Source: Opitutaceae bacterium
GTDB taxonomy: Bacteria > Verrucomicrobiota > Verrucomicrobiia > Opitutales > Opitutaceae
DNA length: 33,356 bases
Assembly: GCA_947474995.1 (NCBI GenBank)
Contig: CANJNJ010000049.1
Location: forward strand, 1 to 33,356
Reading direction: 5' to 3'
Shown in pieces: positions 12,578 to 28,292 of the stretch. The translations under genes and the position numbers were made by a program. Positions within the stretch are counted from its first letter, which is position 1; each line of letters begins with the position of its first letter. A model generated the notes under the pieces. The model had not been told where the DNA came from. It worked only from the letters and a program-made list of their open reading frames with translations, and did not search any database.

Positions 12578-12607
12578 TTGACGGTCGAAGCTTGGTTTGA
12601 GGATAAA
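12578..12607 (+). promoter_or_regulatory. Possible sigma70-type promoter for the MFS gene
   Basis: TTGACG at 12578-12583 and GATAAA at 12602-12607 are separated by 18 bp, 74 bp before the proposed GTG start of the transporter. The match is fair (5/6 and 4/6 to the E. coli consensus) but rests on that foreign consensus. A direct repeat ACGGTCGA overlaps the -35 side (12565-12572 and 12581-12588). Confidence 0.3.
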
Positions 12608-12680
12608 CGCGCCGCGTCGCGTTTCGAACGGTACTTTCCGTCTTTCCAAGGCCCGCCGCTGCGGTTTCGCTGGCTACCGC

Positions 12681-13940
12681 GTGAACGAGAAGAAATCCCT
12701 CTGGCCGGTGACGTCGCTGGCGGTGCTGACGGGTCTGAACCTGCTCGACTACCTTGATCGCACGATTCTGGGCTCGGTGTTGCCGCCGTTGCGGGAGGAA
12801 CTTCATCTCAGCTACGAGCAGGCGGGCACAATCGGCACGGCTTTCATGCTGGGCTATTTCCTCACGTCGCCGATCTTCGGGTATCTTGGCGACCGGATGC
12901 CGCGGCGCTGGCTGATTGCGGCGGGCGTGTTGGTGTGGAGCTTTGGCACGCTGATGTCGGGCCACGCCAGTGCCTACGTTTCGCTGCTTTGCTTTCGGGT
13001 CCTGGTCGGTTTCGGCGAAGCCAGTTTTGGCACGATCAGCCCGGGCTGGATCGCCGATCTCTTTCCCCCGGGGCGGCGCAATAATGCGATTACGGTCTTT
13101 TATTTCGCGATCCCGGTTGGCTCCGCCATCGGCTACCTCTTCGGCGGCTGGATGGCCGTTCACTACGGCTGGCGCGCCGCGTTCCTGGGCGCCGGCTATC
13201 CGGGTCTCGTGCTGGCTGGCCCGCTTTTCTTTCTGCGCGAGCCGCCCCGCGGGGCGAGCGACGCAACACCCGCGGCGTCGGCCGATCTGCGACCAGCCGG
13301 CTGGCGGGTTTACGGGACGCTGCTGAAGTTTCCCCGCTACGTGGTCCTCGTCGCCGGGTACACCGCGCAGACCTTTGCCATGGGTGGTTTTCAGCTCTGG
13401 GCGCCGAGTTTTCTCGTCGAGGTGCACCACATGAAACTCGACACGGCGGCCTTCTTTTTCAGCGCGTCCCTCGCCGCGTCCGGCCTGGTGGCGACGCTGG
13501 CCGGCGGGTTCACCGCGACGCGCTGGCAAAGAAAAACGGGCGTCGGCTACGCGTGGATTTTGGCCCTCAGCGCGCTCACGACTGCGCCGATGGCGTTTCT
13601 GGCCTTTACCCTCACGAGTCTGACGGCGGCCAAGGTGGCGCTCGTGCTGACGATGTTCCTGATGTTTCTTTCCACCGGGCCCGTCAACACGCTGATCCTC
13701 GAGACCGTGCCGGCTTCCATGCGAGCCAGTTCCATGGCCGCATCGATTTTCACGATCCACCTGTTTGGCGACCTGTGGTCGCCGAAGGTGGTCGGACACC
13801 TCGCGGACCGTTGGGGCAACCTGCAGCGCGCGGTCGTTTGGACCCTGCCGGGCGCTCTGATTGTCGGCGCACTGCTTTGGACGTGCCTCGTCATCTGGAC
13901 CAAGCGGGATCTCAGCCGGACTCGTGCCGTTGAAAGTTGA
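12681..13940 (+). CDS. Major facilitator superfamily transporter, Spinster-like
   Basis: An inner-membrane protein of about 12 hydrophobic segments. The first helices carry NLLDYLDRTIL and the loop GYLGDRMPRR, the usual MFS motif A position. GFGEASFGTISPGWIADLF, FYFAIPVGSAIGYLFGG and FLREPPRGA closely follow the Spinster family (animal SPNS1/SPNS2, which move lysolipids and sphingosine-phosphate; bacterial homologues are known). The frame is open from a TTG at 12597, but the first 28 residues are Arg-rich and unlike an MFS N-terminus, so I use the GTG at 12681 (419 aa). The last codons and stop lie inside repeat copy A. The substrate is unknown; a lipid-like molecule is an inference from family. 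Confidence 0.85.
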   Translation: MNEKKSLWPVTSLAVLTGLNLLDYLDRTILGSVLPPLREELHLSYEQAGTIGTAFMLGYFLTSPIFGYLGDRMPRRWLIAAGVLVWSFGTLMSGHASAYVSLLCFRVLVGFGEASFGTISPGWIADLFPPGRRNNAITVFYFAIPVGSAIGYLFGGWMAVHYGWRAAFLGAGYPGLVLAGPLFFLREPPRGASDATPAASADLRPAGWRVYGTLLKFPRYVVLVAGYTAQTFAMGGFQLWAPSFLVEVHHMKLDTAAFFFSASLAASGLVATLAGGFTATRWQRKTGVGYAWILALSALTTAPMAFLAFTLTSLTAAKVALVLTMFLMFLSTGPVNTLILETVPASMRASSMAASIFTIHLFGDLWSPKVVGHLADRWGNLQRAVVWTLPGALIVGALLWTCLVIWTKRDLSRTRAVES

Positions 13941-14094
13941 GAGGGGAAAGTTGAAAGCGATGAACGCCGGGGCGAAATCGCTCCTTTTGGGCTGGGTTCG
14001 AGGCAAGCGGATCAGTGACCGCTTTTTCGCGGTCTACACCGCAGTTAATTTTTTGTCGGCTCTGGCTTTCAACTCTCAACTGAATTTTTCCGGC
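13929..14094. repeat. Dispersed inverted-repeat element, copy A
   Basis: Lies between the convergent MFS and ispH genes. The left end (13929-13957) reads GTTGAAAGTTGAGAG and then GGGAAAGTTGAAAGC. The right end (14065-14094) is its inverse in pattern, CTTTCAACTCTCAACTG, followed by TCCGGC. Between them is a separate 6-bp hairpin (GACCGC 14017-14022 with GCGGTC 14029-14034, loop TTTTTC). The MFS stop codon is contributed by the left end. Three further sites in this window carry the same end sequence. Confidence 0.7.
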
Positions 14095-14147
14095 TAAGAC
14101 GCGGAGGGAACTCTTTAGCGACCGCCGGAGAAAACTGACGGGGCGTC

Positions 14148-15935
14148 TCAGCGGGGCAGGTCCGGCACGCCGTGATCGTGAAGTACGTCGTCCACGCTTC
14201 GCAGCGAAGCGGGCGGGAAAAATGAATTCAGGCGGGTAATAACCTGCTGGATAATTCCGTCCGGGCAACTGGCGCCCCCGGTAATCAGGATCCGCTTCGG
14301 CGTACCCGCCACGGTGTTTCCTCGCGTTGGGACAGCGGGGAGATTCGACCAGAGCGGGCGGGATTCCGTGTGGCCGCTGCCTCCGCCGACATACAGGTAG
14401 TGCTCCACGGCCTGCGGCGAGGGAATGCTCGACTCCGACTGGATGAAGAACGCCTTAGGCCCGAGCTTCTGTTCGCACAGACGGAAAAGCTGGTAGGTGT
14501 TTGAAGAATTCTTGCCGCCAATGACCAGGGCGGCATCAAGCGGTTCGGCGAGCGCGCGGCTCAGGGCGTCCTGATTCACTTGGGTCGCGTAGCACAGGGT
14601 GTCGCGGCGGCTGCCGCCGCCCACGTGGGTGTCATCGCCAAACTTCGGCCGGTAGACGCCGCGCAGATATTCGATGATGGCGATGGTTTCGTTCATCAGG
14701 AGGGTCGTCTGATTGACGACAGCCACGCGTTCGAGATGACGCGCGACGTCAAACCCCGCCGTGTGTCGGCCGGCGAAAAGCTCGGTGAAGCGCTGTTGGC
14801 GCCGGGCGTCGGAGCTCGCGATTATTTCGCCGAGTTGGCGCGCTTCCTCGAGATTCCGCACGATGACGGCGGGAGCAAAGCGGCGGGTGTTGGAGAACGT
14901 CGCTTTTGTCTCCTCGTGTTCGTGCTTGCCGTGAATCACCACGGTGTAGCCTTCGCGACCATAGGCGCGGGCTGCCTTCCACACTTTTTCCACGAGCATG
15001 CAGGTGGCGTCGTATTGGTAGACGGGCAGTCCCTTGCGGACGAGGCGACGCTTGTCCTCATCCGTCGCGCCGAAGGCGGGAATAATGACGATATCGTCGG
15101 TGGTGAGCGTGTCCCACAGGAGTTCGTCCGGCGCGGCGGCAGCTCCCGCCGTCGGCGCACGCGCGACTCGGCCGGATGTGGTATATGGCACGCCTTTGTC
15201 CGTCTGGAGATAACGCAGGCCCCGCCGCAGCAGGTCCTCGTTGACAAAGGGATTGTGGATCAACTCGGAGAGCATGAACACCCGGCGGCCGGGATTTTCG
15301 GCCAGCGTCTCGTAGGCGCGCTCAATCGCATTCTTCACCCCGAGGCAGAAGCCGAAGTGGCTGGGGATGACGTAGCGGATGGCGCCAAAATCGAGCGTCA
15401 CCGGCGCGGTCGCAGTGCGCTCCTGCTGACGAGCGAGCGTCTTGATCGCGAGGCAAAGGCGGGACTGGTAAAGAGCGGCGGCTTCCCGGTCCTGCGCGTA
15501 GATGGCGGTGTTGCGCTCGAGCGCGGGTCGAAATTTGTAGATGAAATCGCTTTCGCCAAGATGAAGGTAGGGGATTTCAACGAGATGCGGATCGAGGGCC
15601 TCGAGGAGCGTGGCCAGGGAGGGAGCCAAGGTTGCTGGTTCGGCGGCGAGCTGATCGAGCGAATGGAAGTCAATTTCACCGTCCAGCGGTTGGCCCTCCA
15701 CTTGAACCAAGAAGACGTGGAACGAACGACCGGCGGCCGCGCTGACCAACGTCGCCACGGGCACAGTGTGGTGGCGAAACGCCGATTCCAACCGCGCCGT
15801 CGCCATCGCGAGATCGCTGCCGGTAAAGGCGAGACCGCGCTTGGAGCCCAGGGACCGCACGGCCAGCTGGTTGCTCGGATTGAAAGCCAGCACAGCAACG
15901 AGGGAAGAGGGGGCGGCGACGGCAGCCGAAGACAT
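14148..15935 (-). CDS. ispH: 4-hydroxy-3-methylbut-2-enyl diphosphate reductase with an unusual N-terminal extension
   Basis: IspH performs the last step of the MEP isoprenoid pathway, reducing HMBPP to IPP and DMAPP with a [4Fe-4S] cluster. The three cluster cysteines are present: Cys197 in HFGFCLGVKNAIERAY, Cys312 in YDATCMLV and Cys448 in DTLCYATQ. The substrate-binding HxE (H340, E342 in HGKHEHEETKA), GGKNSSNTYQL and ITGGASCPDGIIQ are also there. The whole is 595 residues against about 310-400 for usual IspH. Residues 1 to about 185 form an extra domain with no motif I recognise, and the core also carries a low-complexity insert near 250-270. The start is ATG at 15933-15935. A small ORF ends 75 bp upstream on the same strand. 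Confidence 0.92.
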   Translation of the reverse strand: MSSAAVAAPSSLVAVLAFNPSNQLAVRSLGSKRGLAFTGSDLAMATARLESAFRHHTVPVATLVSAAAGRSFHVFLVQVEGQPLDGEIDFHSLDQLAAEPATLAPSLATLLEALDPHLVEIPYLHLGESDFIYKFRPALERNTAIYAQDREAAALYQSRLCLAIKTLARQQERTATAPVTLDFGAIRYVIPSHFGFCLGVKNAIERAYETLAENPGRRVFMLSELIHNPFVNEDLLRRGLRYLQTDKGVPYTTSGRVARAPTAGAAAAPDELLWDTLTTDDIVIIPAFGATDEDKRRLVRKGLPVYQYDATCMLVEKVWKAARAYGREGYTVVIHGKHEHEETKATFSNTRRFAPAVIVRNLEEARQLGEIIASSDARRQQRFTELFAGRHTAGFDVARHLERVAVVNQTTLLMNETIAIIEYLRGVYRPKFGDDTHVGGGSRRDTLCYATQVNQDALSRALAEPLDAALVIGGKNSSNTYQLFRLCEQKLGPKAFFIQSESSIPSPQAVEHYLYVGGGSGHTESRPLWSNLPAVPTRGNTVAGTPKRILITGGASCPDGIIQQVITRLNSFFPPASLRSVDDVLHDHGVPDLPR

Positions 15936-16010
15936 GATGATCGAGACTGGCAGGGGTCCCGGTCGACGGCAAGGGCCGGGAAAACCGGTCCGGCCAAAAC
16001 CTGACCGGTG

Positions 16011-16151
16011 TCAGGCCTCGCCCGCTTCGTCGCTGTCGGCAAAGGGATTGCCGACGAATTCCGTCCCAAAGAAATCCTCGTCTTCGAGAACGCTCCTGAC
16101 CGCGGCGGTGACGGTGGCCCGGTCCGCGGGATTCAACTGCGGGAAATCCAT
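16011..16151 (-). CDS. Small acidic protein of unknown function (46 aa)
   Basis: A short frame with an ATG at 16149-16151 and a TGA at 16011-16013, reading MDFPQLNPADRATVTAAVRS and continuing into an acidic tail rich in Asp, Glu and Phe. An in-frame stop 20 codons before the ATG, with no other start between, makes this ATG the only option. It precedes ispH by 75 bp on the same strand. The balanced amino-acid composition and acidic tail look like a genuine small protein, but there is no family I can name and no strong ribosome binding site. The residues just upstream (reading GIAELRT) also look protein-like, so the gene may be a remnant of a longer one. Confidence 0.45.
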   Translation of the reverse strand: MDFPQLNPADRATVTAAVRSVLEDEDFFGTEFVGNPFADSDEAGEA

Positions 16152-16637
16152 CGTGCGCAGTTCGGCGATGCCGGCGCGGACCTGGGGGCGATCGCGGGTG
16201 CCGCGAGGAATTCATCCGCGCGGTTTGAAATGTCGTCGGTGATCGGACGAAGTCCTTCGGGCCATGGAGAAATGCTCGCCACGCCCAACGACTTTGCAAC
16301 TGCGCAAAGCGAAATGCCAAAGAGCGGGCTAGCAAGGCCTGTCATTCTGAGACAGGCCACGAAGAGCCCGAAAGGTGGACCGTGCGCTCCGCGCTCGGTC
16401 AGCGTTGGGCTCGATCTCACGTTCGATGGCCGCGCACGGAGTGCACGGCCCACCCGGTACGCCCTCGGTGGGTTACATCCTGACTTCTCCCCGAACGTCA
16501 TCAGAGCGTAGCGAAGAATCCAGTTGGACTTAGTCCACCTCTCTGCGGGTGCGAACCTGCAGCTGGATTCTTCGCTGGCGCTTACCACGACAATCAGAGG
16601 ACCTTTTTGGGGTCCCTTTTGGGGCAGCGGGCGAACG
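16152..16637. repeat. Gene-free spacer made of stacked inverted repeats (alaS to small-ORF interval)
   Basis: About 490 bases without a convincing gene. Four hairpin-forming units follow each other: GGCCTGTC/GACAGGCC (16336-16343 with 16351-16358, 7-base loop); GGCCGCGCAC/GTGCACGGCC (16428-16437 with 16441-16450, one mismatch, loop GGA); CCCACC/GGTGGG (16449-16454 with 16467-16472); and a 17-base arm at 16510-16526 paired with 16560-16576 (one mismatch) that includes AGCGAAGAATCCAG. The last contains a nested TGGAC/GTCCA hairpin. CCTTTTTGGGG and CCCTTTTGGGG stand in tandem at about 16600-16625. The ATTCTGAG and GCGAAGAATCC words resemble palindromic intergenic repeats seen in many bacterial genomes. 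Minus-strand frames through here are by-products of those repeats. Confidence 0.65.
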
Positions 16638-19355
16638 TCAGCCGCGCAGGACTTCGGCAAGCCGCGTCACATCCTTGCCGCCGCCCATGGCGAAGTCGGG
16701 CTTGCCGCCGCCTTTGCCCCCGATCTGGATACTCAAGGCCTGCACGATTTTTCCGGCCTGGTGACCAGCCTTGATTGCTCCCGGTGAACAGAAGGCCACG
16801 AGTCCCGCTTTGTCGCCGAAGACGGCGCCAAGCTGCACCGCGCCTTCGCCGATTTTGGCGAGGATTTGGGAACCGACGCTGCGCAGCATCTCCTGATCCG
16901 CAACGGGCACAACGGCCGACACAAACTTGAGCCCGTCCCGGGTCACCGCTTGTGCGGCGAGTTCATCCGCGAGGCCGGCCAGGGCCTTTTGCTGGAAGCC
17001 CTTCAACTGTTTCTCGGTTTCCTTTTGATGCGCGAGCAGGGTTTCGAGCTTCTTGACGACGTCACTGGTGCCGCCGCCAAGATGGGCGCTGACTGCCGCC
17101 AGGGCGGCTTCCCGTTGGGCGATGAAATCGAAAGCGGGCTGGCCCGCGACGGCCTCGATACGGCGGGTACCGGCGGCGATGGCCATTTCGGCGACAATTT
17201 TGATGACGCCGATTTCGCCGGTCGTGGCGACGTGTGTGCCGCCGCAAAGTTCGCGGCTGAAGCCGCCGATGTCGACGACCCGAACCACCTTGCCGTATTT
17301 GTCACCGAAGAAGGCGAGGGTGCCTTCCGGCTTCTTGTCGAATTCGGTTTCGTAGCTTTCGACCTTGGTATTGTCGATGACGCGCTCGTTGACGAGGCGT
17401 TCCACCTCGAGCAACTGGGCATGGGTGACGGCCTCGAAGTGCGAGAAGTCGAAGCGCATCCGTTCGGGCGTCTTGGATGTTCCGGCCTGGCGGACGTGCG
17501 TGCCGAGGGTCTTGCGCAGCGCCCAGTGAATCAAGTGAGCCGCGGAGTGATGGCGGGAAATGGCGCGGCGCCGCACGAGGTCGACAGCCAGTTCGGCCCG
17601 GGCCCCGGCGGTCGGAACCACGAGACCGGACGCAGGTGCGACCTTATGGAGGTGGCGCCCGGATTTGTCCTTCACGCAATCAACGAGGTGCAGGAGCGTG
17701 CCGTTGATGAGCGCCGTGCCCGTGTCACCGGCCTGCCCGCCCATTTCGGCGTAGAACGGCGTTTGGTCGAACACGAGAAAGACATCCTTGTCCGCGTGCA
17801 CCGCTTCGATGAGCTGCGCGTGGGCATGGGTCTGCGTGTAGCCGAGAAAGATCGTGGCTTTTTGGTCGACGGCGGTTTCACCCTCGGTGGCGGCCACGAG
17901 GATTTCCTTCTTTTGCGCGGCACGACCGAGCCCGCGTTGCTTTTCCATCAGCGCTTCGAACTCCACGGTGTCGACGGTCATTCCGCGTTCGGTCGCGAGA
18001 AGCTGGGTCATGTCCAAGGGGAAGCCGTACGTATCGTAGAGTTCGAAGGCATCTTTGCCCTCGATGGACTTGTGCTGGCCCTGGTTCGCCCGATCGACCG
18101 CAGCCTGGAAGTTGCGCAGGCCACGTTCCAAAGTGCGGCCAAAGCTGTCTTCCTCGCCGCGAATGACGCGCTGGACGAGGTCCTGCCGCTCTTTCAGTTC
18201 CGGAAACACCGTACCCAGGGATTGCACGACCGGTCCGACGAGTTGCTCGAAGAAGCCGGCCTGCAGTCCGAGTTTCTTCCCGTACAAAATTCCCCGCCGG
18301 AGAATGCGGCGGATGACGTAATTGCGGCCTTCGTTACCGGGCAGGATGCCGTCGGCGATGGCGCAGCTGACGCAGCGCGCGTGATCCGCGAGAACCCGGA
18401 AGGCGACGTCGATGTTCTCCTGGTCCGTGAGACCTTCCCGCTTCGTCGGAACCGTGGCCAGGTACGTTTTGCCGGAAAGCTCCGCGACTTTTTGGAAGAG
18501 GGGCGTAAAGATGTCGGCCGCGTAGTTCGAAGGGTCCTTGGTGAAGTCCTGGAAGCCGCCCGTCGTCGCGTAGATGCCAGCGACGCGTTCGAAACCCATG
18601 CCGGTGTCGACGTGCTTGGCGGCGAGCGGCGAGAAGGTGCCATCGGCATTGGCGTTGAATTGGATGAAAACGTGATTCCAGATTTCAATGCAGCGCGGCG
18701 AGCTGGCGTTCACCAGTTTTCGTCCGGCGCTCTCGTCGTCGGACGGGAGCAGATTGAAATGAATCTCCGAGCACGGGCCGCACGGTCCCGTGTCGCCCAT
18801 CATCCAGAAATTATCCTTCTTGTTGCCGTGGACGATGTGGACTTTGGGGTCGAGACCTTCGCGGCGGAAAATGTCCGCCCAGATATCGTAGGCTTCCTGG
18901 TCAAAATCGGACGGGTCGTGTTTGGACTTGTCCGGCGCATAGACGGTGGCGAAGAGGCGCTTGGGCGGAATGCCCCAGACTTTCGTAATCAGCTCCCAGC
19001 CCCAATTGACGGACTCCTTCTTGAAATAGTCGCCAAAGGACCAGTTGCCGAGCATCTCGAACAGCGTGTGATGATAGGTGTCGTAGCCGACGTCCTCGAG
19101 ATCGTTGTGCTTGCCGCCGGCGCGGATGCATTTCTGCGTGTCCGCGGCGCGGGTGTCCTTGGCCGGATGGGCCCCGGCCCACTTCGAGACATCGGCGGCG
19201 CGATCGCCGAGGAAGATGGGCACGAATTGATTCATCCCCGCGTTGGTGAAAAGCAGACCGGGTGAATCGGGCAGCAGCGACGTCGACGGTACGACGGTGT
19301 GGCCCTGGCGGGCGAAAAAATCGAGGAACGACTGGCGGATTTCGGCGGAGGTCAT
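16638..19355 (-). CDS. alaS: Alanyl-tRNA synthetase
   Basis: Charges tRNA-Ala and edits mischarged Ser/Gly. The 905-residue protein begins MTSAEIRQSFLDFFARQGH, with GLLFTNAGMNQFVPIFLG and the class II catalytic motifs in the first 400 residues. The editing domain has the zinc/histidine motif HHSAAHLIHWALR near residue 605 and CGGTH near 702, and a C-terminal C-Ala-like segment ends in GGKGGGKPDFAMGGG, typical of AlaS. I place the start at the ATG at 19353-19355. The frame stays open another 112 codons upstream, but that part is encoded by repeat-rich intergenic sequence. The 375 bases upstream contain a long inverted repeat that would lie in the mRNA leader. Confidence 0.96.
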   Translation of the reverse strand: MTSAEIRQSFLDFFARQGHTVVPSTSLLPDSPGLLFTNAGMNQFVPIFLGDRAADVSKWAGAHPAKDTRAADTQKCIRAGGKHNDLEDVGYDTYHHTLFEMLGNWSFGDYFKKESVNWGWELITKVWGIPPKRLFATVYAPDKSKHDPSDFDQEAYDIWADIFRREGLDPKVHIVHGNKKDNFWMMGDTGPCGPCSEIHFNLLPSDDESAGRKLVNASSPRCIEIWNHVFIQFNANADGTFSPLAAKHVDTGMGFERVAGIYATTGGFQDFTKDPSNYAADIFTPLFQKVAELSGKTYLATVPTKREGLTDQENIDVAFRVLADHARCVSCAIADGILPGNEGRNYVIRRILRRGILYGKKLGLQAGFFEQLVGPVVQSLGTVFPELKERQDLVQRVIRGEEDSFGRTLERGLRNFQAAVDRANQGQHKSIEGKDAFELYDTYGFPLDMTQLLATERGMTVDTVEFEALMEKQRGLGRAAQKKEILVAATEGETAVDQKATIFLGYTQTHAHAQLIEAVHADKDVFLVFDQTPFYAEMGGQAGDTGTALINGTLLHLVDCVKDKSGRHLHKVAPASGLVVPTAGARAELAVDLVRRRAISRHHSAAHLIHWALRKTLGTHVRQAGTSKTPERMRFDFSHFEAVTHAQLLEVERLVNERVIDNTKVESYETEFDKKPEGTLAFFGDKYGKVVRVVDIGGFSRELCGGTHVATTGEIGVIKIVAEMAIAAGTRRIEAVAGQPAFDFIAQREAALAAVSAHLGGGTSDVVKKLETLLAHQKETEKQLKGFQQKALAGLADELAAQAVTRDGLKFVSAVVPVADQEMLRSVGSQILAKIGEGAVQLGAVFGDKAGLVAFCSPGAIKAGHQAGKIVQALSIQIGGKGGGKPDFAMGGGKDVTRLAEVLRG

Positions 19356-19481
19356 GGACGCTGGAAAGGTCAGAAGACAGAGGTCGGAGAACGCCTTAGC
19401 AAGAGGGGAATTGCGGATGGGGTGGCGGGGTTGATGAGAGAATATCTCTGGAAGTCCGGAACGGCTTCGGTCGCGCCACTG

Positions 19482-19560
19482 TGTCCCCGGCCACCGCGGA
19501 AGGGCGTTCCGCTGGTTGGACCTGCCGCGGGGCGCTTTGGGGACAGGCAACCAGCGGAAC
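19482..19560. repeat. Long inverted repeat with alternative pairings upstream of alaS
   Basis: A perfect 13-bp inverted repeat, GTTCCGCTGGTTG at 19506-19518 and CAACCAGCGGAAC at 19548-19560, encloses a second short stem (CCTG/CAGG). Its left arm can instead pair locally as GCGGAA/TTCCGC (19496-19501 with 19507-19512), and TGTCCCC (19482-19488) can pair with GGGGACA (19539-19545), so competing folds are possible. In the alaS mRNA it would sit roughly 125-205 bases before the start codon. The rest of 19356-19730 holds repeat copy B and no gene. Confidence 0.55.
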
Positions 19561-19586
19561 AGTCGGTAATCCGCCAAGTCGCAAGT

Positions 19587-19720
19587 ATTCAGTTGAGAGC
19601 CGAGAGTTGGGCGCTCGCACCAAGAGGTGAATTTCGTTTCGGGCGTGATGACTCGCGCGTCAGCTCTGAAGCGCGGCCGCTCAACTCTCATCCCTCAACC
19701 CACAACTGAATTCATCCGGA
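19587..19720. repeat. Dispersed inverted-repeat element, copy B
   Basis: Between the end of the pilus/secretion ATPase gene and the start of alaS. The left end (19587-19612) begins ATTCAGTTGAGAG; the right end (19679-19720) reads CTCAACTCTC and later ACAACTGAATTCATCCGGA. These are the inverted ends also found in copies A and C. The middle 65 bases have nothing I can assign. Confidence 0.6.
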
Positions 19721-19730
19721 GCGACCACCC

Positions 19731-21437: not shown

Positions 21438-21618
21438 GGCGGGTGGCCTTGGCTTTGAAAAGTTTACCGATTTCCGTCTGATCGAGCTTTTCCATGGCGA
21501 ACGCGCCGGCGACCCGCTCGCCCTTCAATTCATTCAGCAATTCCGGCAGGGAATAGCGCACTTCGGCCCCGAGCGGCAGGGTAGCCGGGGGCGGGGTAGC
21601 ATCGGAGGGGGCGGTCAT
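21418..21618 (-). CDS. Small protein of unknown function in the phosphorelay/ATPase operon (66 aa)
   Basis: Starts at ATG 21616-21618, ten bases after the stop of the response regulator, and overlaps the GTG start of the ATPase by 20 bp. The first 20 residues are Pro/Thr/Ala-rich; the middle reads RYSLPELLNELKGERVAGAF, which looks like a short helix; and the end is strongly basic (KLFKAKATRRAKSNH). There is no signal peptide or membrane segment. The tight packing on both sides supports it being real. I do not recognise the family. By position it could be an adaptor between the regulators and the motor, which is a guess. Confidence 0.7.
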   Translation of the reverse strand: MTAPSDATPPPATLPLGAEVRYSLPELLNELKGERVAGAFAMEKLDQTEIGKLFKAKATRRAKSNH

Positions 21619-21627
21619 CGGATTGGG

Positions 21628-22014
21628 TTATTTGGTCTCGAAACAGGCATCGATGGTTTCAGCGAGAGCCTTCGTGATTTCATCCTTCGGGGTGTCTTTG
21701 CGGATATAATTGGCGGCGCCGAGTTCGAGTGCCTCCTCGACGGTCTGGCGGTTCGTAAGCGACGTCAGCATAATGACGACGCAGTTCGGATCGATTTCCC
21801 GCAGCTTCCTGAGGGTCTCGAGCCCGTTCATCACGGGCATGTTCACGTCCAGAAGCACGAGATCCGGCGCTTCCCTTTGGTAGGCGGCGATTGCCTCTTC
21901 GCCGTTGGTGGCTTCGATCAGGTTGGGCGCGCCGAGCTGCCGGAGAATCAGCCCGACGTACTTGCGGATATGGGCCTCGTCATCGACCAAGAGTGCGGTT
22001 CCGTGAAAATTCAT
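21628..22014 (-). CDS. Single-domain response regulator (CheY-like)
   Basis: A 128-residue receiver domain with no output domain. The acidic pair is D11-D12 (LLVDDE), the phospho-acceptor is Asp56 in LVLLDVNMPVMNG, the conserved Ser/Thr is in MLTSL, and the lysine is in YIRKDTPKDE. I start it at the ATG 22012-22014, which overlaps the kinase stop by 4 bp (ATGA), so translation is coupled. Alone, such a protein acts by binding a partner or by passing phosphate on. Its neighbours are the hybrid kinase upstream and the 66-residue protein and motor ATPase downstream. Confidence 0.93.
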   Translation of the reverse strand: MNFHGTALLVDDEAHIRKYVGLILRQLGAPNLIEATNGEEAIAAYQREAPDLVLLDVNMPVMNGLETLRKLREIDPNCVVIMLTSLTNRQTVEEALELGAANYIRKDTPKDEITKALAETIDACFETK

Positions 22015-23201
22015 GGGAAGAGGGGGAGCGTAACGCGAAACTCGCATCCGCGGATGGGAAGGTTTTCCACCGTGATCGTTCCACGGTGGGCCCCGATGAT
22101 CTTGCGGCAGATAGCAAGCCCAAGCCCCGTGCTTTTTTCCCCACCCGTGGGCTGGGTCGATAGGCGACTGAAATCCTTGAACAAGCGATCGCGTTCGCCC
22201 AGGGCGATGCCCGGTCCCTGATCCTGCACGGAAAAGGCGCAGGTGCCGTGAGCTGCGTCCTGCTGGACGGTGACCGTGATGGTGGAGCCCGGTGGGGAAT
22301 ATTTTACCGCGTTACTGAGTAAATTGTCGATGACCTGACGAATTTTCGCCTCATCGATGACCAGCGTCACCGTGGTCGCAGTGGGCGCAAAAACCACCGT
22401 CGTCTTTTTCTTGCCTGCCTCGATGTTGGTCTGGGAGACGGAGCGGGAAATGAGCCCCGTCAGATCGTGGGGACCAAGGTGAAGCTTAAGTTCACCCGAC
22501 TCGATTACGGCGACGTCGAGCAGATCGTTCACCAGATCGAGCATGGACTGGCTCGCACCGAGAATGACGGTGATAAGTTCCTTTTGCTCAGTGGTGATTG
22601 GCCCCACGGCACCGTCGCGGAGAAATTCCGCCAGCCCGCGAATCGAAGCGAGCGGATTGCGCAAATCGTGGGCCGCCATGCCGAGGAACTTGTTCTTTTG
22701 GGCGTTGGCGTAGCTCAGTTGCTCGACCAGCAATTTCTGCTGTTCCGCGAGCAGTTGATTCTGCAGGTGTGAACGGATGCGGGCGAGAACCTCTTTTGCC
22801 TTGAAGGGCTTCGGCAGATAGTCGACGCCACCGGCGCCCAGGCCCTCGACGACGTCATCCGATTCGTTTTTCGCCGTGATGAAGATGACCGGTGCGCTGC
22901 CTTCGCCGTGCTGTTTCTTCAAGCGCCGGCAGGTTTCAAACCCGTCGATCCCGGGCAGCATGACATCGAGCAAGACCAGGTCGGGGCCAAACTGAGCGAA
23001 TTTTTCAAGCGCGCTTTCGCCAGAGTCGGCGTCGGCGAGAACATAACCTTCACTCCGGAGGATCCCGGCCAGGATGCGAAGATTCACGCGGTCGTCATCG
23101 ACAATTAAGATTTTCCGACCCTTCAAATCGATCGGGAGGGAGTGGGCCGACTCACGCTTGGCCGGCACTTCGGGTGGACTTTTGACGTCGGGAAGGCTCA
23201 C
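22011..23201 (-). CDS. Soluble hybrid histidine kinase (receiver-HisKA-HATPase)
   Basis: A 396-residue cytoplasmic kinase in which the receiver comes first. Residues about 28-148 are a receiver with D35-D37 and phospho-acceptor Asp79 (LVLLDVMLPGIDG). A coiled segment (about 145-172) leads into HisKA with His178 in MAAHDLRNPLASIRG. The ATPase domain has DNLLSNAVKYSP, DQGPGI and STGLGLAICRKIIGAHRG. There is no membrane segment or PAS/GAF sensor, so its input must arrive through its receiver or by protein contact. It lies 30 bp after one response regulator and overlaps the next by 4 bp. The receiver-kinase order suits a phosphorelay switch that is itself controlled by phosphorylation. Confidence 0.94.
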   Translation of the reverse strand: MSLPDVKSPPEVPAKRESAHSLPIDLKGRKILIVDDDRVNLRILAGILRSEGYVLADADSGESALEKFAQFGPDLVLLDVMLPGIDGFETCRRLKKQHGEGSAPVIFITAKNESDDVVEGLGAGGVDYLPKPFKAKEVLARIRSHLQNQLLAEQQKLLVEQLSYANAQKNKFLGMAAHDLRNPLASIRGLAEFLRDGAVGPITTEQKELITVILGASQSMLDLVNDLLDVAVIESGELKLHLGPHDLTGLISRSVSQTNIEAGKKKTTVVFAPTATTVTLVIDEAKIRQVIDNLLSNAVKYSPPGSTITVTVQQDAAHGTCAFSVQDQGPGIALGERDRLFKDFSRLSTQPTGGEKSTGLGLAICRKIIGAHRGTITVENLPIRGCEFRVTLPLFP

Positions 23202-23231
23202 GGGTATTGGCAGCCGACAAGGCCGGCGGCT

Positions 23232-23651
23232 TTAGTGATGGTTGTCGTCCCCCTCCGTGGATTCGAGATTATCAATCGCTTCGCACAGCATCTTCAGTGC
23301 CTCCTGGGGGGGACTTTGCTTTAGGATATAAGCCGCCGCCCCGCGTTTCACGGTCTCAAGTACGACCGACATCGCACTTTGCGAGGAGACCATGATGACT
23401 GGGATGGCCGGGTATGCTGCGGTCAAATTTGTCAGCACCTCGAGACCGCTCATGACGGGCAGGTTGATGTCGAGGAGTACAAGCTCGGGTTGGTGTTGGG
23501 CGACCACGTCCAAGCCTTTGCGCCCATCGCCGGCTTCCCAAACCTGATCGATGCCGACCTGCTTTAGAAGCAAACGCAGAAATACCCGGACGTGCTCCTC
23601 GTCTTCGATAATTGCAGCCGTGGTTGGGCGTGCCGTTCTTGATATTGTCAC
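23232..23651 (-). CDS. Single-domain response regulator (CheY-like), first gene of the operon
   Basis: A 139-residue receiver with E16-D17 in IIEDEEHVRVFL, phospho-acceptor Asp61 in LVLLDINLPVMSG, switch Ser in MVSSQS and Lys in YILKQSPP. The end is acidic and His-rich (ESTEGDDNHH). I use the GTG at 23649-23651; a TTG at 23658-23660 is possible, and the frame is open further upstream, but that part is Arg-rich and runs into the divergent helicase leader. It is followed 30 bp later by the hybrid kinase, and the 233-bp spacer to the divergent helicase probably contains promoters for both directions. Confidence 0.88.
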   Translation of the reverse strand: MTISRTARPTTAAIIEDEEHVRVFLRLLLKQVGIDQVWEAGDGRKGLDVVAQHQPELVLLDINLPVMSGLEVLTNLTAAYPAIPVIMVSSQSAMSVVLETVKRGAAAYILKQSPPQEALKMLCEAIDNLESTEGDDNHH

Positions 23652-23811
23652 GTAAGGCAATACAATCCGCAAGCCTGCGTTGGGAACGAACGATGGCGCC
23701 GCGACCGAACGGCTTGGGCGCTCGGCAGAATTCCGCCCCCGCCGTGTCGCCGGTGTCGGCACTCCGCTCTTGCGCACAGAAACGCGGGCGTGGTAGCGCC
23801 GGTGAAAGGGG

Positions 23812-23837
23812 GCCTTCTGCCGCCGGCCTTAGAAGGC
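23812..23837 (+). other. Hairpin in the helicase mRNA leader
   Basis: GCCTTCT (23812-23818) pairs perfectly with AGAAGGC (23831-23837) around a 12-base loop, ending 47 bases before the helicase ATG. There is no T tract, so it is not a terminator. A structured 5' leader would fit a helicase made under conditions that stabilise RNA structure, but the sequence shows only the hairpin. Confidence 0.4.
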
Positions 23838-23884
23838 AGAGAATGAGTGCTGGCGATGGAGCGAACCTGCCTCCACTCTGTTGT

Positions 23885-25651
23885 ATGGAAAAACGTCTCT
23901 TTACAGAACTCGGCCTGACGCCGGAGATACTCAAGGCGGTCGACAAGATGGGATTTGAAGAGGCTTCGCCGATCCAAACGGCGGTGATTCCGACTATCCT
24001 CACCGGCCGCGATGTCGTGGGCCAGTCATCCACCGGGTCGGGCAAGACCGCGGCTTTTGCGATTCCGGCCATTGAAAAAGTCGACACCCAACAGCGCGCG
24101 GTGCAGGTGCTCATCCTGTGTCCGACCCGCGAGCTCGCGGTGCAGGTGGCCGAAGAGACGGGCAAACTTGCCTTCTTTAAGCGTGGGGTGAGGGAGGTGC
24201 CGATCTATGGCGGCCAGAGCTACGAGCGCCAGTATCGCGCGCTGGAGGCGGGAGCCCAGATCGTCATTGGCACGCCGGGCCGCGTGATGGACTTGATGGA
24301 ACGGGGCGCGTTGAAGCTCAATGCGCTCAAGCTGGTCGTGCTCGACGAAACCGATCGGATGCTCGACATGGGGTTTCGCGACGACATCGAGCACATCCTG
24401 AAGTCGGTGCCGGAGAAGCGGCAGCTGCTGTTTTTTTCCGCGACCATTCCGCGCGCGATCCAGGACCTAATCACCCGTTACTCGCGCGATCCAGCATGGA
24501 TTAAGATTGAGGCCGTCGCAAAGAACGCCCCGCAGGTGGAGCAGGTCTGGTTTGAGGTGGATCGGCGCTCGAAGATCGAGGCGTTGACGCGACTCATCGA
24601 CGTGCACGATTTCCGCTACGGGATCATTTTTTGCAGCACGAAGATCATGGTCGACGATCTCGACGAGCACCTGCACTCACGCGGGTATCAGACCGATCGG
24701 CTGCACGGCGACTTGTCCCAGACACAGCGGGATCGAGTCATGGATAAATTTCACCGCCATGCGTTCGAGTTCCTCATCGCCACGGACGTCGCGGCGCGCG
24801 GGCTCGACGTCAATGACCTCGAAGTGGTGTTCAATTTCGACCTGCCGAACGACGCGGAGGACTACACTCACCGCATCGGGCGCACCGGGCGCGCGGGTCG
24901 GTCGGGTCGCGCCTTCACCTTCGTCTCGGGCCAGGAGCTCTACAAGCTGCAGAGCATGGTGCGCTGGGCGAAACTCGATATCCGCCGCGGCAAGATTCCC
25001 TCGCTCGATGAGGTGGACGAGGCGCGGACGAATGTCTTCTTTGAAAAGATCCGTTCAACCCTGGAGGCCAAGGAATTCAAGCCGCACGACCAGATGATCG
25101 ACCGGCTGCTCGACCAAGGCTACGCGAGCACGGATATATGCTCGGCGCTGATCCACTTGTTGCAGGGCGCCGTCGCGCCGGCTGCGGGCAAAACGCCGAG
25201 TGCACCCCCGCCCGCATCGGCACGGGAACGAGCGGCGCCCGCGCGGCCGGCGGCCGCTCGGGCGGCCAAACCGGCGCCGGACTGGGCGCGACCGGTCGCG
25301 GCACCGGGAGCTGAAAAGGCGGCGCCGGTGGCCTCCCCCGTGCCAGGTGAAGCCGAGGTTGCGACCAAGGCGAAATATGAACGTCCCGCCCGCACCGGTG
25401 CTGAAAAAGGGATGGCGACGGTATTTCTCAACGTGGGCCGCAAGCATTTGATCACGCCGGCGGATGTCGTCGGTAAGATCGCGGGGGTTACCCGATTGCC
25501 CGCCAGTGTCGTTGGGGCGATCGACATCCATCAGCGGCACACGCTGGTTGACGTCGCGGAAAGCGAGGTCGCCGTCATCGTAAAAAAGCTCACCGGGATT
25601 ATGATGAAGGGCGAGACGCTGGCGCCCGCGCTGGCGTCCGAAACAGCGTAA
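23885..25651 (+). CDS. DEAD-box family ATP-dependent RNA helicase with DbpA-type RNA-binding domain
   Basis: Unwinds RNA duplexes during ribosome assembly or RNA turnover. The 588-residue protein has Q-motif PIQ (29-31), motif I SSTGSGKT (48-55), PTREL, TPGR, motif II as DETD (154-157) instead of DEAD, motif III SAT, then RGLDV and HRIGRTGRAGRSG in the second RecA domain. An Ala/Pro-rich linker of about 70 residues follows, and a C-terminal DbpA/CsdA-like RNA-binding domain (about 505-580, starting near GMATVFLNVGRKH). I start it at the ATG 23885 because the upstream 91 open codons are the leader of the divergent operon. The full CsdA/DeaD-like architecture suggests a cold-shock or ribosome-assembly helicase. 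Confidence 0.94.
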   Translation: MEKRLFTELGLTPEILKAVDKMGFEEASPIQTAVIPTILTGRDVVGQSSTGSGKTAAFAIPAIEKVDTQQRAVQVLILCPTRELAVQVAEETGKLAFFKRGVREVPIYGGQSYERQYRALEAGAQIVIGTPGRVMDLMERGALKLNALKLVVLDETDRMLDMGFRDDIEHILKSVPEKRQLLFFSATIPRAIQDLITRYSRDPAWIKIEAVAKNAPQVEQVWFEVDRRSKIEALTRLIDVHDFRYGIIFCSTKIMVDDLDEHLHSRGYQTDRLHGDLSQTQRDRVMDKFHRHAFEFLIATDVAARGLDVNDLEVVFNFDLPNDAEDYTHRIGRTGRAGRSGRAFTFVSGQELYKLQSMVRWAKLDIRRGKIPSLDEVDEARTNVFFEKIRSTLEAKEFKPHDQMIDRLLDQGYASTDICSALIHLLQGAVAPAAGKTPSAPPPASARERAAPARPAAARAAKPAPDWARPVAAPGAEKAAPVASPVPGEAEVATKAKYERPARTGAEKGMATVFLNVGRKHLITPADVVGKIAGVTRLPASVVGAIDIHQRHTLVDVAESEVAVIVKKLTGIMMKGETLAPALASETA

Positions 25652-25701
25652 TGGTGGGTGGGCAAGAGGGCGGAGCCGGAGAGTGGGCCGGCCCCGCGCC
25701 C

Positions 25702-25731
25702 TTGACACTCGCGCCACGGGGCGACTATTTC
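25702..25731 (+). promoter_or_regulatory. Possible promoter for the HNH gene with a very short leader
   Basis: TTGACA at 25702-25707 is a perfect -35 match, followed after 18 bp by TATTTC (25726-25731). Transcription would start about 5 bases before the ATG at 25743, implying a nearly leaderless mRNA. The -10 match is weak. Confidence 0.3.
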
Positions 25732-25742
25732 CGTGCCCCAGT

Positions 25743-26360
25743 ATGGAAGCTGCGCTCGACCAGTCGGTGCTTGTGCTGAATCGCCTCTGGCAGGCGGTGA
25801 ACATTATTGGGGCGCGCCGGGCGTTCGGGCTGCTGGCCCGGGGTCACGCCCAGGTGGTGCATCACCATGAGGATGATTTCCGGACGTTCCCGCTGCTGAA
25901 CTGGATCGATTTTTCGCTGAGCAACCCGCCTTTGGCTGAGATCGAAATGGTGCGTACCCCGAGTCGGACCATCCGGCTGCCGCGCGTGATCCTCCTCACG
26001 TTCTTCGACAAACTGCCCTGCAAGGAACTGAAGCTCACGCGGAACAATGTCTTCGAGCGCGACAAGAATCACTGCCAGTATTGCTCGCGGGTCCTGCCGC
26101 GCGAGGAACTGAATCTGGATCACGTTATCCCTCGCGATTACGGCGGGAAGACGACGTGGGAAAACATCGTTTGCTCGTGCATCAAGTGCAACACGAGGAA
26201 AGCCAATCGGCTTCCGCATGAGGCGGGCATGAGGCTTATTCGCAAACCCTCGCGCCCGAAGTGGCGGCCGGTGATCTCGCTCGTGCTCGGCAACCAGCGG
26301 AACGAGGTCTGGAAGGATTTTCTGGACGTGGCGTATTGGAACGTGGAACTGGAAGCGTGA
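25743..26360 (+). CDS. HNH endonuclease family protein
   Basis: A 205-residue protein with a C-terminal HNH/zinc-ribbon nuclease fold. CQYC (Cys111, Cys114) and CIKC (Cys146, Cys149) form the zinc site, and the catalytic core is LDHVIPRDYGGKTTWENIV, with Asp126-His127 and Asn141. The N-terminal 95 residues (VLVLNRLWQAVNII, RRAFGLLARGHAQVV) form a conserved lead-in found in a widespread stand-alone HNH family whose biological role is not settled. The ATG at 25743 is the start; the frame upstream is not protein-like. The gene stands alone between the helicase and the ACT protein, with no methyltransferase, transposase or phage gene nearby, so restriction or homing is not indicated. Confidence 0.88.
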   Translation: MEAALDQSVLVLNRLWQAVNIIGARRAFGLLARGHAQVVHHHEDDFRTFPLLNWIDFSLSNPPLAEIEMVRTPSRTIRLPRVILLTFFDKLPCKELKLTRNNVFERDKNHCQYCSRVLPREELNLDHVIPRDYGGKTTWENIVCSCIKCNTRKANRLPHEAGMRLIRKPSRPKWRPVISLVLGNQRNEVWKDFLDVAYWNVELEA

Positions 26361-26421
26361 GCGCGCTTCGCCCCGCGAAGTAAGGTTTAAAGTGTAAGGC
26401 GGAGACTCCTTTTGGTTGCCA

Positions 26422-26475
26422 AGGGCGGGAGGGCCGAACTCCGTCCAGGCCGTTGCCGCGGGGCGCCACCGCCCT
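26422..26475. other. Nested inverted repeat upstream of the ACT-domain gene
   Basis: AGGGCGG (26422-26428) pairs with CCGCCCT (26469-26475), with GGCC/GGCC as an inner stem. It ends 44 bases before the ATG at 26520. No T tract follows. The words AAGGGCG and TGCCGCGGGGCGC also occur in the alaS upstream repeat at about 19500-19535. Confidence 0.35.
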
Positions 26476-26519
26476 GATAACGGGATTGCGCGGCCCCAGC
26501 CGTCCGCCAGTTTTGGGCC

Positions 26520-27092
26520 ATGCTCGCAACCCTCGTCATGACCGTCATCGGCGCCGACCGGCCCGGACTCGTGCAACTGGTGGCTACTCGGGTCGCCGAT
26601 CACGGTGGCAACTGGCTCGAGAGCCGGATGTGTCACCTGGGTGGGCAGTTTGCCGGCATCTTGCGCGTGGAAGTCGCCGCAGAGCGGGTCGACGAGTTGG
26701 TCGGTTCCCTGCATCGGCTCGAGGCGAGCGGGTTGCGCGTAATCGTGCACGCAGAGGGCGATGCAGCCAAGACGCCCGGTTCACGCCCGGCCGGTTCGGT
26801 GGCGAAACTGGAATTGGTCGGACAGGATCGACCGGGAATCTTGCGGAGTGTGTCCGGCGTGCTGGCGACCCACGGGGTGAACGTCGAGGAACTGTCGTCC
26901 GAGCGCGTCAGTGCGCCGATGGGCGGTGGAATTTTGTTTCAGGCTCATGCGACCGTGCTCGTGCCGGCCAAGACCAATCTCGCGGCCGTCCGCGCCGATT
27001 TGGAAAAAATCGCCGCCGATCTAATGGTCGACCTGAAGCTGGAACCCGCAAACTCGCACCGGTCTCAGCCGGAAAATTCAGTTGAGCGCTGA
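26520..27092 (+). CDS. Double ACT-domain protein, GcvR-like
   Basis: A 190-residue cytoplasmic protein made of two ACT domains. Residues about 3-80 contain VIGADRPGLVQLVATRVADHGGNW, and about 94-172 contain LVGQDRPGILRSVSGVLATHGVN. The DRPG(L/I) turn and following glycine are the ligand-binding edge of ACT domains. The two-ACT layout and length match GcvR-type proteins, which in E. coli antagonise the glycine-cleavage activator GcvA; there is no gcvA here, so regulatory function is only inferred. The last residues (QPENSVER) are encoded by the left end of repeat copy C and look like read-in rather than conserved protein. Confidence 0.85.
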   Translation: MLATLVMTVIGADRPGLVQLVATRVADHGGNWLESRMCHLGGQFAGILRVEVAAERVDELVGSLHRLEASGLRVIVHAEGDAAKTPGSRPAGSVAKLELVGQDRPGILRSVSGVLATHGVNVEELSSERVSAPMGGGILFQAHATVLVPAKTNLAAVRADLEKIAADLMVDLKLEPANSHRSQPENSVER

Positions 27093-27253
27093 AGCTTGGA
27101 AGTTAAAAACCCGGGCGGGAAAAACGTTGCCCGAGGTGTATACTTGAAAAATGGAGTCACTGGTCAGTGTGGGTCGAATCCAACGCGAAACGAGTAATCT
27201 CGCCCCGGTCTGCATCGCTTTCAGCTTTCAACCTTCAACTGTACAAGTCCGGC
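27068..27253. repeat. Dispersed inverted-repeat element, copy C
   Basis: The left end (27068-27110) reads GCCGGAAAATTCAGTTGAG. On the other strand this is CTCAACTGAATTTTCCGGC, nearly the same as the right end of copy A. The right end (27217-27253) reads GCTTTCAGCTTTCAACC and then TTCAACTGTACAAGTCCGGC. The ACT gene ends inside the left arm; the cupin gene starts 17 bases after the right arm. Confidence 0.7.
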
Positions 27254-27269
27254 TCAGACCCTCTAAGAC

Positions 27270-27716
27270 ATGCTCGAGCAACTATTGCGCGCCTACCAAT
27301 GGTTCGACCATCCCGAGGGGATGAAGTTTGTCGAAGCGCAGCAGGATGCGTTTCGCACGGTCGGCCACTGGCTTTTCCAGCCCGGGGCGATGTCCGCCTT
27401 CCACCGCGTGCTCAACTGTGAGGAAATTTGGGCCCTTCACGTCGGCCGACTCCACCTTCACGTCATCGCCCCGGACGGCGCATATCGGCTGGTGCGCCTC
27501 GGATTGGATTTGGCCGGCGGCGACGTTCCCGTGGCGACCGTGCCGAAAGGGCACTGGCAGGCGGCGGAACTGGCGCCGGCGGTCCCCTTCGCGTTTGGCA
27601 CCAACGTGTGCGCGCCCGGCTTTCGCTATTCGGAGCTGCAGATCGCGCCACGCTTGGAACTCGCCGAGTTGTTTCCCCAGCACCAAGATCTCATCGTTCA
27701 ACTCACTCACCCATGA
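27270..27716 (+). CDS. Cupin_5 (DUF985) family protein
   Basis: A 148-residue single-domain cupin. The order AFHRVLNCEEIWALHVGR, LHLHVIAPDGAYRLVRLG, TVPKGHWQAAEL and CAPGFRYSELQIA follows the DUF985 family, whose members have a small beta-barrel and mostly unknown activity. His in FHR, Glu in EEIW and His in HLHV are at the usual metal/ligand positions. It starts just downstream of repeat copy C, and its stop overlaps the MOSC start by 4 bp (ATGA, 27713-27716), so the two are translationally coupled. Function is not known. Confidence 0.85.
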   Translation: MLEQLLRAYQWFDHPEGMKFVEAQQDAFRTVGHWLFQPGAMSAFHRVLNCEEIWALHVGRLHLHVIAPDGAYRLVRLGLDLAGGDVPVATVPKGHWQAAELAPAVPFAFGTNVCAPGFRYSELQIAPRLELAELFPQHQDLIVQLTHP

Positions 27717-28240
27717 AGAACTCCGATCCGACCACGTCATCCGAGTCAGGTGCCCCCTTGCGAGCGGGCATGGCCGTGCCGCCTTCGGTCGTGGAAATTC
27801 TGGTGGCGACTTCCCCCACCGCCGCCATGACGTGCCCGGCGGAAGTTCGCGCCGTGCCGGGCAAGGGCCTCGAAGGGGATCGCTATTTCGAAGGCGTCGG
27901 CACGTTCTCGCCGCATCCGCCAAAACCCGATTTTGAAATCACGCTGATCGAAAAGGAAAACGTCGCTGCCTTCGCGCGCGATTCCGGCCTGCCCTTCACC
28001 GCCGCCCACGCCCGGCGCAACCTCGTGACCGTCGGCGTGGATCTAAACGCGTTGGTGGGCCGGGAGTTTTTGATCGGCGAGGTTCGCATCCGCGGCATCC
28101 GGCTTTGCGAACCTTGCAGCTATCTGGCCAAGACGACTTACCCCGAAACGCTCAAGGGCCTGGTGCACAAGGGTGGACTGCGCGCGCAGATCGTGTCCGA
28201 AGGGCGCATCCGCGTCGGAGACCTTATTCGCTGGGAATAA
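27713..28240 (+). CDS. MOSC-domain protein
   Basis: A 175-residue MOSC protein; members of this fold handle molybdenum cofactor sulfur or related substrates. AVPGKGLEGDRYF (48-59), ITLIEKENV, ARRNLVTVGVDLNALVGREF and the Cys132/Cys135 pair in RLCEPCSYL are family features, as is the closing SEGRIRVGDLIRWE. It starts in the stop codon of the cupin gene. An internal ATG at residue 20 could be the true start, since the first 19 residues are Ser/Thr-rich and poorly protein-like, but the ATGA overlap argues for the first. No molybdenum-cofactor gene is nearby, so the substrate is open. Confidence 0.88.
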   Translation: MKNSDPTTSSESGAPLRAGMAVPPSVVEILVATSPTAAMTCPAEVRAVPGKGLEGDRYFEGVGTFSPHPPKPDFEITLIEKENVAAFARDSGLPFTAAHARRNLVTVGVDLNALVGREFLIGEVRIRGIRLCEPCSYLAKTTYPETLKGLVHKGGLRAQIVSEGRIRVGDLIRWE

Positions 28241-28255
28241 ATAAACCCTGAAAGC

Positions 28256-28292
28256 GTTTTCAACTTTCACCTCTCAACTGCACGAGTCCGGC
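28256..28292. repeat. Dispersed repeat end, copy D (single end)
   Basis: GTTTTCAACTTTCACCTCTC followed by AACTGCACGAGTCCGGC, located 16 bases after the MOSC stop. It matches the right ends of copies A and C (TCAACTG, then TCCGGC after six bases). No matching left end is visible, so this is a solo end or a degraded copy. Confidence 0.55.

Follow-up and report, generated by a model that had tools for sequence, protein, structure and literature searches.

The window, that is, the whole 33,356-nt stretch of DNA analysed here, is contig C49 in the draft assembly of an Opitutaceae bacterium, labelled G000 (5.24 Mb). An initial annotation of this DNA had described four sites that share ends of the form TCAACTG-N6-TCCGG. 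All four are present, and with up to two mismatches the motif occurs 10 times in the window against 3.3 expected, a count reached in none of 100 shuffled sequences. The sites lie between protein ORFs, not in an rRNA helix, and are made up as follows.

13915..14094, + strand: site 1, full copy of a 194-bp family, 180 bp, GCCGGACTCGTGC...TCCGGC; 86% over consensus 1-194
13929..13958, + strand: left arm of site 1, TTGARRG-type heptad array
14066..14082, - strand: right arm of site 1, heptads inverted, CTTTCAACTCTCAACTG
19578..19725, no strand assigned: site 2, second subfamily with a different core; outer GTCGC/GCGAC
19590..19611, + strand: left arm of site 2, CAGTTGAGAGCCGAGAGTTGGG
19680..19708, - strand: right arm of site 2, CTCAACTCTCATCCCTCAACCCACAACTG
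27068..27253, - strand: site 3, full but diverged copy of the 194-bp family; 74% over consensus 1-194
27218..27241, - strand: heptad arm of site 3, CTTTCAGCTTTCAACCTTCAACTG
28256..28292, - strand: site 4, single end consisting of heptads and TCAACTGCACGAGTCCGGC; a partner end was not seen

Site 1 starts at 13915 and not at 13929, as first given. The interiors of sites 1 and 3 had been taken for unrelated sequence, which is incorrect, as both match the consensus over its full length. All four sites belong to one dispersed family, within which site 2 represents a second subfamily and site 4 just one end. Site 3 is flanked by TCA on both sides (27065-27067 and 27254-27256). Site 2 carries an outer CCGG on one side only, and by eye its core resembles one further locus of G000 (L007) and two loci of other species (L074, L079). 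When site 2 was compared with relatives via alaS, the upstream neighbour was different in the other species, and an empty site was therefore not obtained.

The ORF upstream of site 1 (12597-13940) terminates within the left arm, with its stop at 13938-13940, and the ORF upstream of site 3 (26520-27092) terminates within the element, with its stop at 27090-27092. Thus, the element provides the stop codon of both. According to the ORF list of the window, none of the copies contains an S23/four-helix-bundle ORF. What weighs against the observation is that the arrays in the window have no more than 2-4 units and are degenerate: when 7-bp runs were searched for strictly, a single one came up there, and scanning for ungapped inverted repeats recovered none of the four sites and mainly other families. 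Two further inverted repeats were seen in the window: GTTCCGCTGGTTG...CAACCAGCGGAAC at 19504-19561, noticed by eye between site 2 and an alaS-like start, and AGCGAAGAATCCAGTTG...CAGCTGGATTCTTCGCT at 16510-16576, from the inverted-repeat scan.

Many copies had been expected genome-wide, and this was borne out. The exact motif occurs 34 times in G000 (19+15), and the pattern read backwards does not occur (0+0). The six bases between the two motif halves, described before as variable, are not free, being AATTTT in 20/34 matches (one end) and CACGAG in 6/34 (the other end); the remaining 8 have other sequences. An alignment of 30 motif places showed that the majority represent one 194-bp element with a conserved core. 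Its consensus ends are GCCGGACTCGTGCAGTTGA on one side and TCAACTGAATTTTTCCGGC on the opposite side, with TTGARRG heptads inside both, facing each other, and GCCGGA-N6-CAGTTGA forms terminal inverted repeats at both ends. A search of G000 with the consensus gave 57 matches, 40 of them with E <= 2e-21 and the other 17 confined to the arms; scoring covered 40 of the 114 candidates from the first look, which makes the copy number of ~40 a lower bound. Copies are 166-196 bp long with arrays as arms, and the best 23 are 90-97% identical to the consensus. In an alignment of 23 copies that includes site 1 (A2), whole 7-bp units are gained or lost in the arms, independently on each side.

Among 57 genomes including G000, the consensus had matches in 16. 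In the other 15 genomes, for each of which at most 14 candidates were scored, the matches listed are confined to the arms (up to ~60 bp; best E 2e-9), and the loci inspected have different cores. Strict runs in G000 are no commoner at lag 7 than at lag 6, a point against the reading that we arrive at below: a 400-kb sample contained 18 with a lag of 7, 19 with a lag of 6 and 14 with a lag of 9, compared with 2 at lag 7 in a Markov sequence control. Only 4 of the 18 lag-7 runs lie in hairpins.

These properties agree with the earlier suggestion of a dispersed, small, non-coding family resembling mobile DNA. The main rival to the reading that we arrive at below is a classical MITE, in which a DDE transposase would recognise GCCGGA-N6-CAGTTGA and duplicate a 3-bp TNA, the heptad arms being incidental. 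Short, gene-less elements with inverted ends and some 3-bp flank repeats are what the two have in common. The tips are well defined, the copies are numerous and similar, and no comparable match was found in the other genomes searched. In addition, the same 3-mer flanks both sides in 10/23 copies against 3.5 expected by permutation (p 0.0002), 7/30 loci having been left out for want of a match within 5 substitutions at both ends; as inverted complements, the flanking 3-mers match at chance level. Identical 3-mers are, however, seen in under half of the scorable copies, and the arms differ from those of MITEs in being tandem arrays of variable number that gain and lose entire heptads independently. 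We consider a MITE unlikely.

We give still less weight to a non-mobile origin, in which regulatory or transcript-end hairpins under selection would have been duplicated by recombination, and regard it as improbable. It would fit the position of the ends, which also favours the reading given below, as 9 of the 28 exact ends examined (out of 34) adjoin the 3′ end of a converging mechanical ORF at 0-1 bp, and the predicted fold of site 1, which is better than 196/200 shuffles (z -2.34). In contrast, the paired positions in arms and core of the 194-bp family show no covariation (double changes in 3/31 pairs, covariation term +0.79), so that conservation of RNA structure in the family is weak, which also counts against the hairpin mechanism proposed below, and Rfam gave no match in the window or at three other loci (L003, L005, L012).

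Mobilisation of REP/BIME elements by a RAYT (Y1 transposase), to which the initial annotation had also pointed, has very little probability in our view. G000 does have 7 Y1_Tnp genes (PF01797 search), and a system of dispersed hairpins with one or a few partner genes per genome would be similar to ours, in which the copies are intergenic, hairpin-capable and frequently located at gene ends. The pairing is not supported: flanks of up to 1.5 kb were fetched for all 7 genes and contained no TTGARRG array, and the few end-like matches in them are weak, with up to 3 substitutions. Moreover, copies of 166-196 bp with array arms are not short palindromes, and our elements differ from REP/BIME in having 7-bp arrays with a locus-specific unit and PF05635 rather than Y1_Tnp as the partner. 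A second, REP-like hairpin family is present in G000 (TTCCGCCTTHAGGCGGAA, often as facing doublets; loci L219-L238) with 33 matches in 400 kb, none of which lies in the window. The flanks fetched for the 7 Y1_Tnp genes do not contain it either.

An arm-matching locus from another family (L073) adjoins a four-helix-bundle gene, and for this reason we searched for PF05635. The family was present in 40/57 genomes, with 3 copies in G000, and in none of 14 control genomes. One of the G000 genes, on contig C78 (L093) between neighbours that look like livK and livH, sits within inverted TTGARRG arrays. This is the unit as well as the arrangement of the 194-bp family arms, which places the family with the S23-type inverted arrays. 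The C78 locus lacks the GCCGGA-N6 tips and the core of the 194-bp family; hence the arms may be common to both without shared movement. The other two G000 genes have different units by eye, GTGACRN and a GGAAAA-like one, and among 30 fetched PF05635 loci the unit appeared specific to each locus, also by eye. At L107, apparently the same locus as L093, the gene is retained with a different unit, so that the unit cannot be a strictly fixed binding site.

The closest solved chain to the four-helix-bundle protein is 2gsc (E 4.3e-22). The protein is homologous to Avd of DGRs, with DivGenRetAVD at E 3.3e-4, below its cut-off; a kinship of S23-type proteins to Avd is also stated in the accessible part of PMC10053308. 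The Xanthomonas S23 protein is given as a homopentamer in the text available from PMC4990558.

We then asked how general the arrangement is. Genome contigs were scanned with a profile made from an alignment of 12 four-helix-bundle proteins, and the best 80 loci listed, most of them from draft MAGs, span many bacterial phyla and include one ANME-1 archaeon. Three loci were dropped as their flank was too short, leaving 77. An inverted-flank score of at least 32 was found for 66/77 genes and for 7/200 ORFs of the same loci (Fisher p 1e-43), these control ORFs being mechanical ORFs of which some adjoin other elements; 11/77 genes have no strong inverted flank. At least 20/28 matches at lag 7 were seen for 62/77 genes compared with 17/200 neighbouring ORFs (Fisher p 2e-31). 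The same 77 genes gave 44 at lag 14, 5 at lag 8, 2 at lag 13, 1 at lag 9 and none at the rest of lags 4-13. Two further sets of 30 loci gave inverted flanks in 28/30 vs 3/44 and 29/30 vs 3/44, and lag 7 in 24/30 vs 6/44 and 24/30 vs 5/44; these sets are not independent, as 14 of the first 30 were already among the 77 and the second includes several orthologous loci of related species. The class layout is thus two inverted, hairpin-capable arrays with a unit of mostly 7 bp, around a PF05635 gene or a gene-less spacer.

For the 70 of the 80 loci that have a clear array, unit and protein relatedness were weakly correlated (Mantel rho 0.145, p 0.001), and the nearest protein had the same unit type in 14/70 against 1.6 expected. 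Arrays on the entering side have stops in all three frames in 57/113 cases, where a random heptad would give 28.6% (p 8e-7), and on the leaving side in 39/113 (p 0.10). The richness of entering arrays in stops fits a tolerance of insertion inside operons.

If gene-less copies belong to this class, the dispersed repeat unit is predicted to be the unit at a resident gene. GTGAC arrays gave 16 matches in G000. Twelve of these places were listed: one is a four-helix-bundle gene, at six an inverted partner lies no more than 120 bp away (score 26-38), four are one-sided (12-16) and the remaining one, with a score of 24, is doubtful. A matrix of shared units was set up for 19 genomes, hand-picked from the loci (18 of the 80). 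GTGAC arrays occur in 7/7 genomes with a GTGAC-flanked gene and in 3/12 others (p 0.0024); with the gene locus itself excluded, 6/7 matched genomes remain (p 0.017), the only match in G060 being the gene locus. TTAGGT arrays occur in 4/4 genomes with the matching gene unit and in 0/15 others (p 0.00026), and all four have at least one match away from any listed PF05635 hit. G057 has 2 genes and, counting several to one array, 839 matches to GTGAC arrays. A reversed-pattern control also gives matches in some genomes, for example 25+34 in G070 for GTGAC and 21+25 in G067 for TTAGGT; it is not neutral here, probably because it matches other heptad units. Dispersed arrays therefore tend to carry the unit of a resident four-helix-bundle gene.

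Of 27 genomes of the genus, 23 were read across the gyrB-gyrA spacer and 22 had it measured, because the gyrB stop was not found in G002 (contig end). The spacer is nearly empty in G020, where it has 27 bp, and in G024, where it has 66 bp. Inverted arrays with no gene were seen by eye in four genomes, the unit being AGGAGTC in G000 and G004 and ~8 bp long in G012 and G023. A four-helix-bundle gene is found with TAGCGRG in G001, G006, G015, G017 and G025 and with other units in G007 and G010, while the spacers of G008, G009, G011, G013, G014 and G019 contain a GxxExxY gene and different arrays (PF13366 hits; the protein of G013 matches TIGR04256 at 7e-38). G002 shows a TAGCGRG right array only, and the spacers of G003, G018 and G022 have no clear fit to any of these types. 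Occupancy of the spacer is therefore changing between species of the genus, and this variety of inserts and near-empty spacers among related species argues against the non-mobile reading. In two spacers (L289 of G010 and L291 of G007), outer remnants resembling GxxExxY arrays were noticed by eye around the four-helix-bundle insert; such a composite suggests that one element was inserted into another.

At six spacer loci (L270, L272, L279, L287, L288, L292), GxxExxY (PDDEXK_3) genes have inverted arrays of irregular units. GxxExxY genes generally have inverted flanks in 28/30 cases vs 9/42 and a 7-bp period in 0/30; as the period is absent, we treat these loci as a parallel class.

Small elements with similar parts are known from other settings. 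Cyanobacterial STRRs are heptamer arrays: dispersed, mostly intergenic tandem units of 7 bp. In the accessible text of PMC4692102, GGGAATC of Xanthomonas and GGGGAYT of Nostoc are heptamer arrays, as is TAACTGA of Beggiatoaceae in that of PMC4679880. Like our arrays, these are dispersed 7-bp tandem units located mostly between genes. Unlike in our case, a partner gene is not named in the text available from these two papers; the terms "S23", "four-helix" and "intervening" have no occurrence in that of PMC4679880, nor has "four helix" in that of PMC4692102.

PMC4990558 describes the rRNA intervening sequence (IVS) of Coxiella, in 23S helix 45, as having inverted ends and tandem heptamers upstream of an S23 ORF, and calls the function and origin of the IVS unclear. 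As far as that text goes, our elements share with the rRNA IVS the S23 ORF, the inverted complementary ends, the heptamers before the ORF and the variable number of units. In contrast to rRNA IVSs, which lie in an rRNA helix and are excised by RNase III, they sit between protein genes and are bounded by an array at either end, and in G000 and G057, for which counts were made, copies lacking the gene are more numerous than those with it. A search of titles and abstracts in the open-licence literature found no paper joining S23 genes to dispersed heptamer repeats. Since the Coxiella IVS, in the portion of the paper available, has the same parts, we regard as new the occurrence of IVS-like elements outside rRNA and with numerous gene-less copies.

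Taken together, we think it likely that the sites in the window are non-autonomous copies, lacking a gene, of small insertion elements that form a widespread class resembling the S23/IVS type. The results suggest that the scattered 7-base repeats and the S23 gene belong to one little-recognised kind of mobile DNA. The layout, its spread over phyla, the shared-unit tendency and the turnover of one spacer are what the data show. For movement of the copies by the protein, we propose copying of a hairpin with help of the protein. A transcript or a displaced single strand would fold via its paired arrays, and the S23/Avd-like protein would bind the folded arrays. A copying enzyme acting in trans, either a reverse transcriptase or the replication machinery, could then make the new copy, and gene-less copies would rely on protein supplied in trans. 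Insertion beside stop codons, together with the stops in the entering arrays, would make such copies tolerated between genes of an operon. The reading would connect rRNA IVSs, the heptamer repeats of several bacterial groups and the common "four helix bundle protein" family, to which no function is assigned, and may also account for odd repeat stretches within predicted proteins.

A broader version can be put forward tentatively, at somewhat less than even chances. GxxExxY (PD-(D/E)XK-like) and S23/IVP proteins, which are unrelated families, would each mark the form with a gene in a pan-bacterial element class bounded by inverted arrays of a short repeat. Its gene-less and rRNA-located members would be many of the heptamer repeats that lack an explanation and the rRNA IVSs, and an S23/Avd-type protein would spread them in trans via a hairpin intermediate.

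At one further locus (L122; G044:C120:16200-18800), several TTGAAAA-type hairpins were noticed by eye in and around an apparent type I restriction-modification locus. They are apparently read in frame within one ORF, and one of them adjoins a four-helix-bundle gene.
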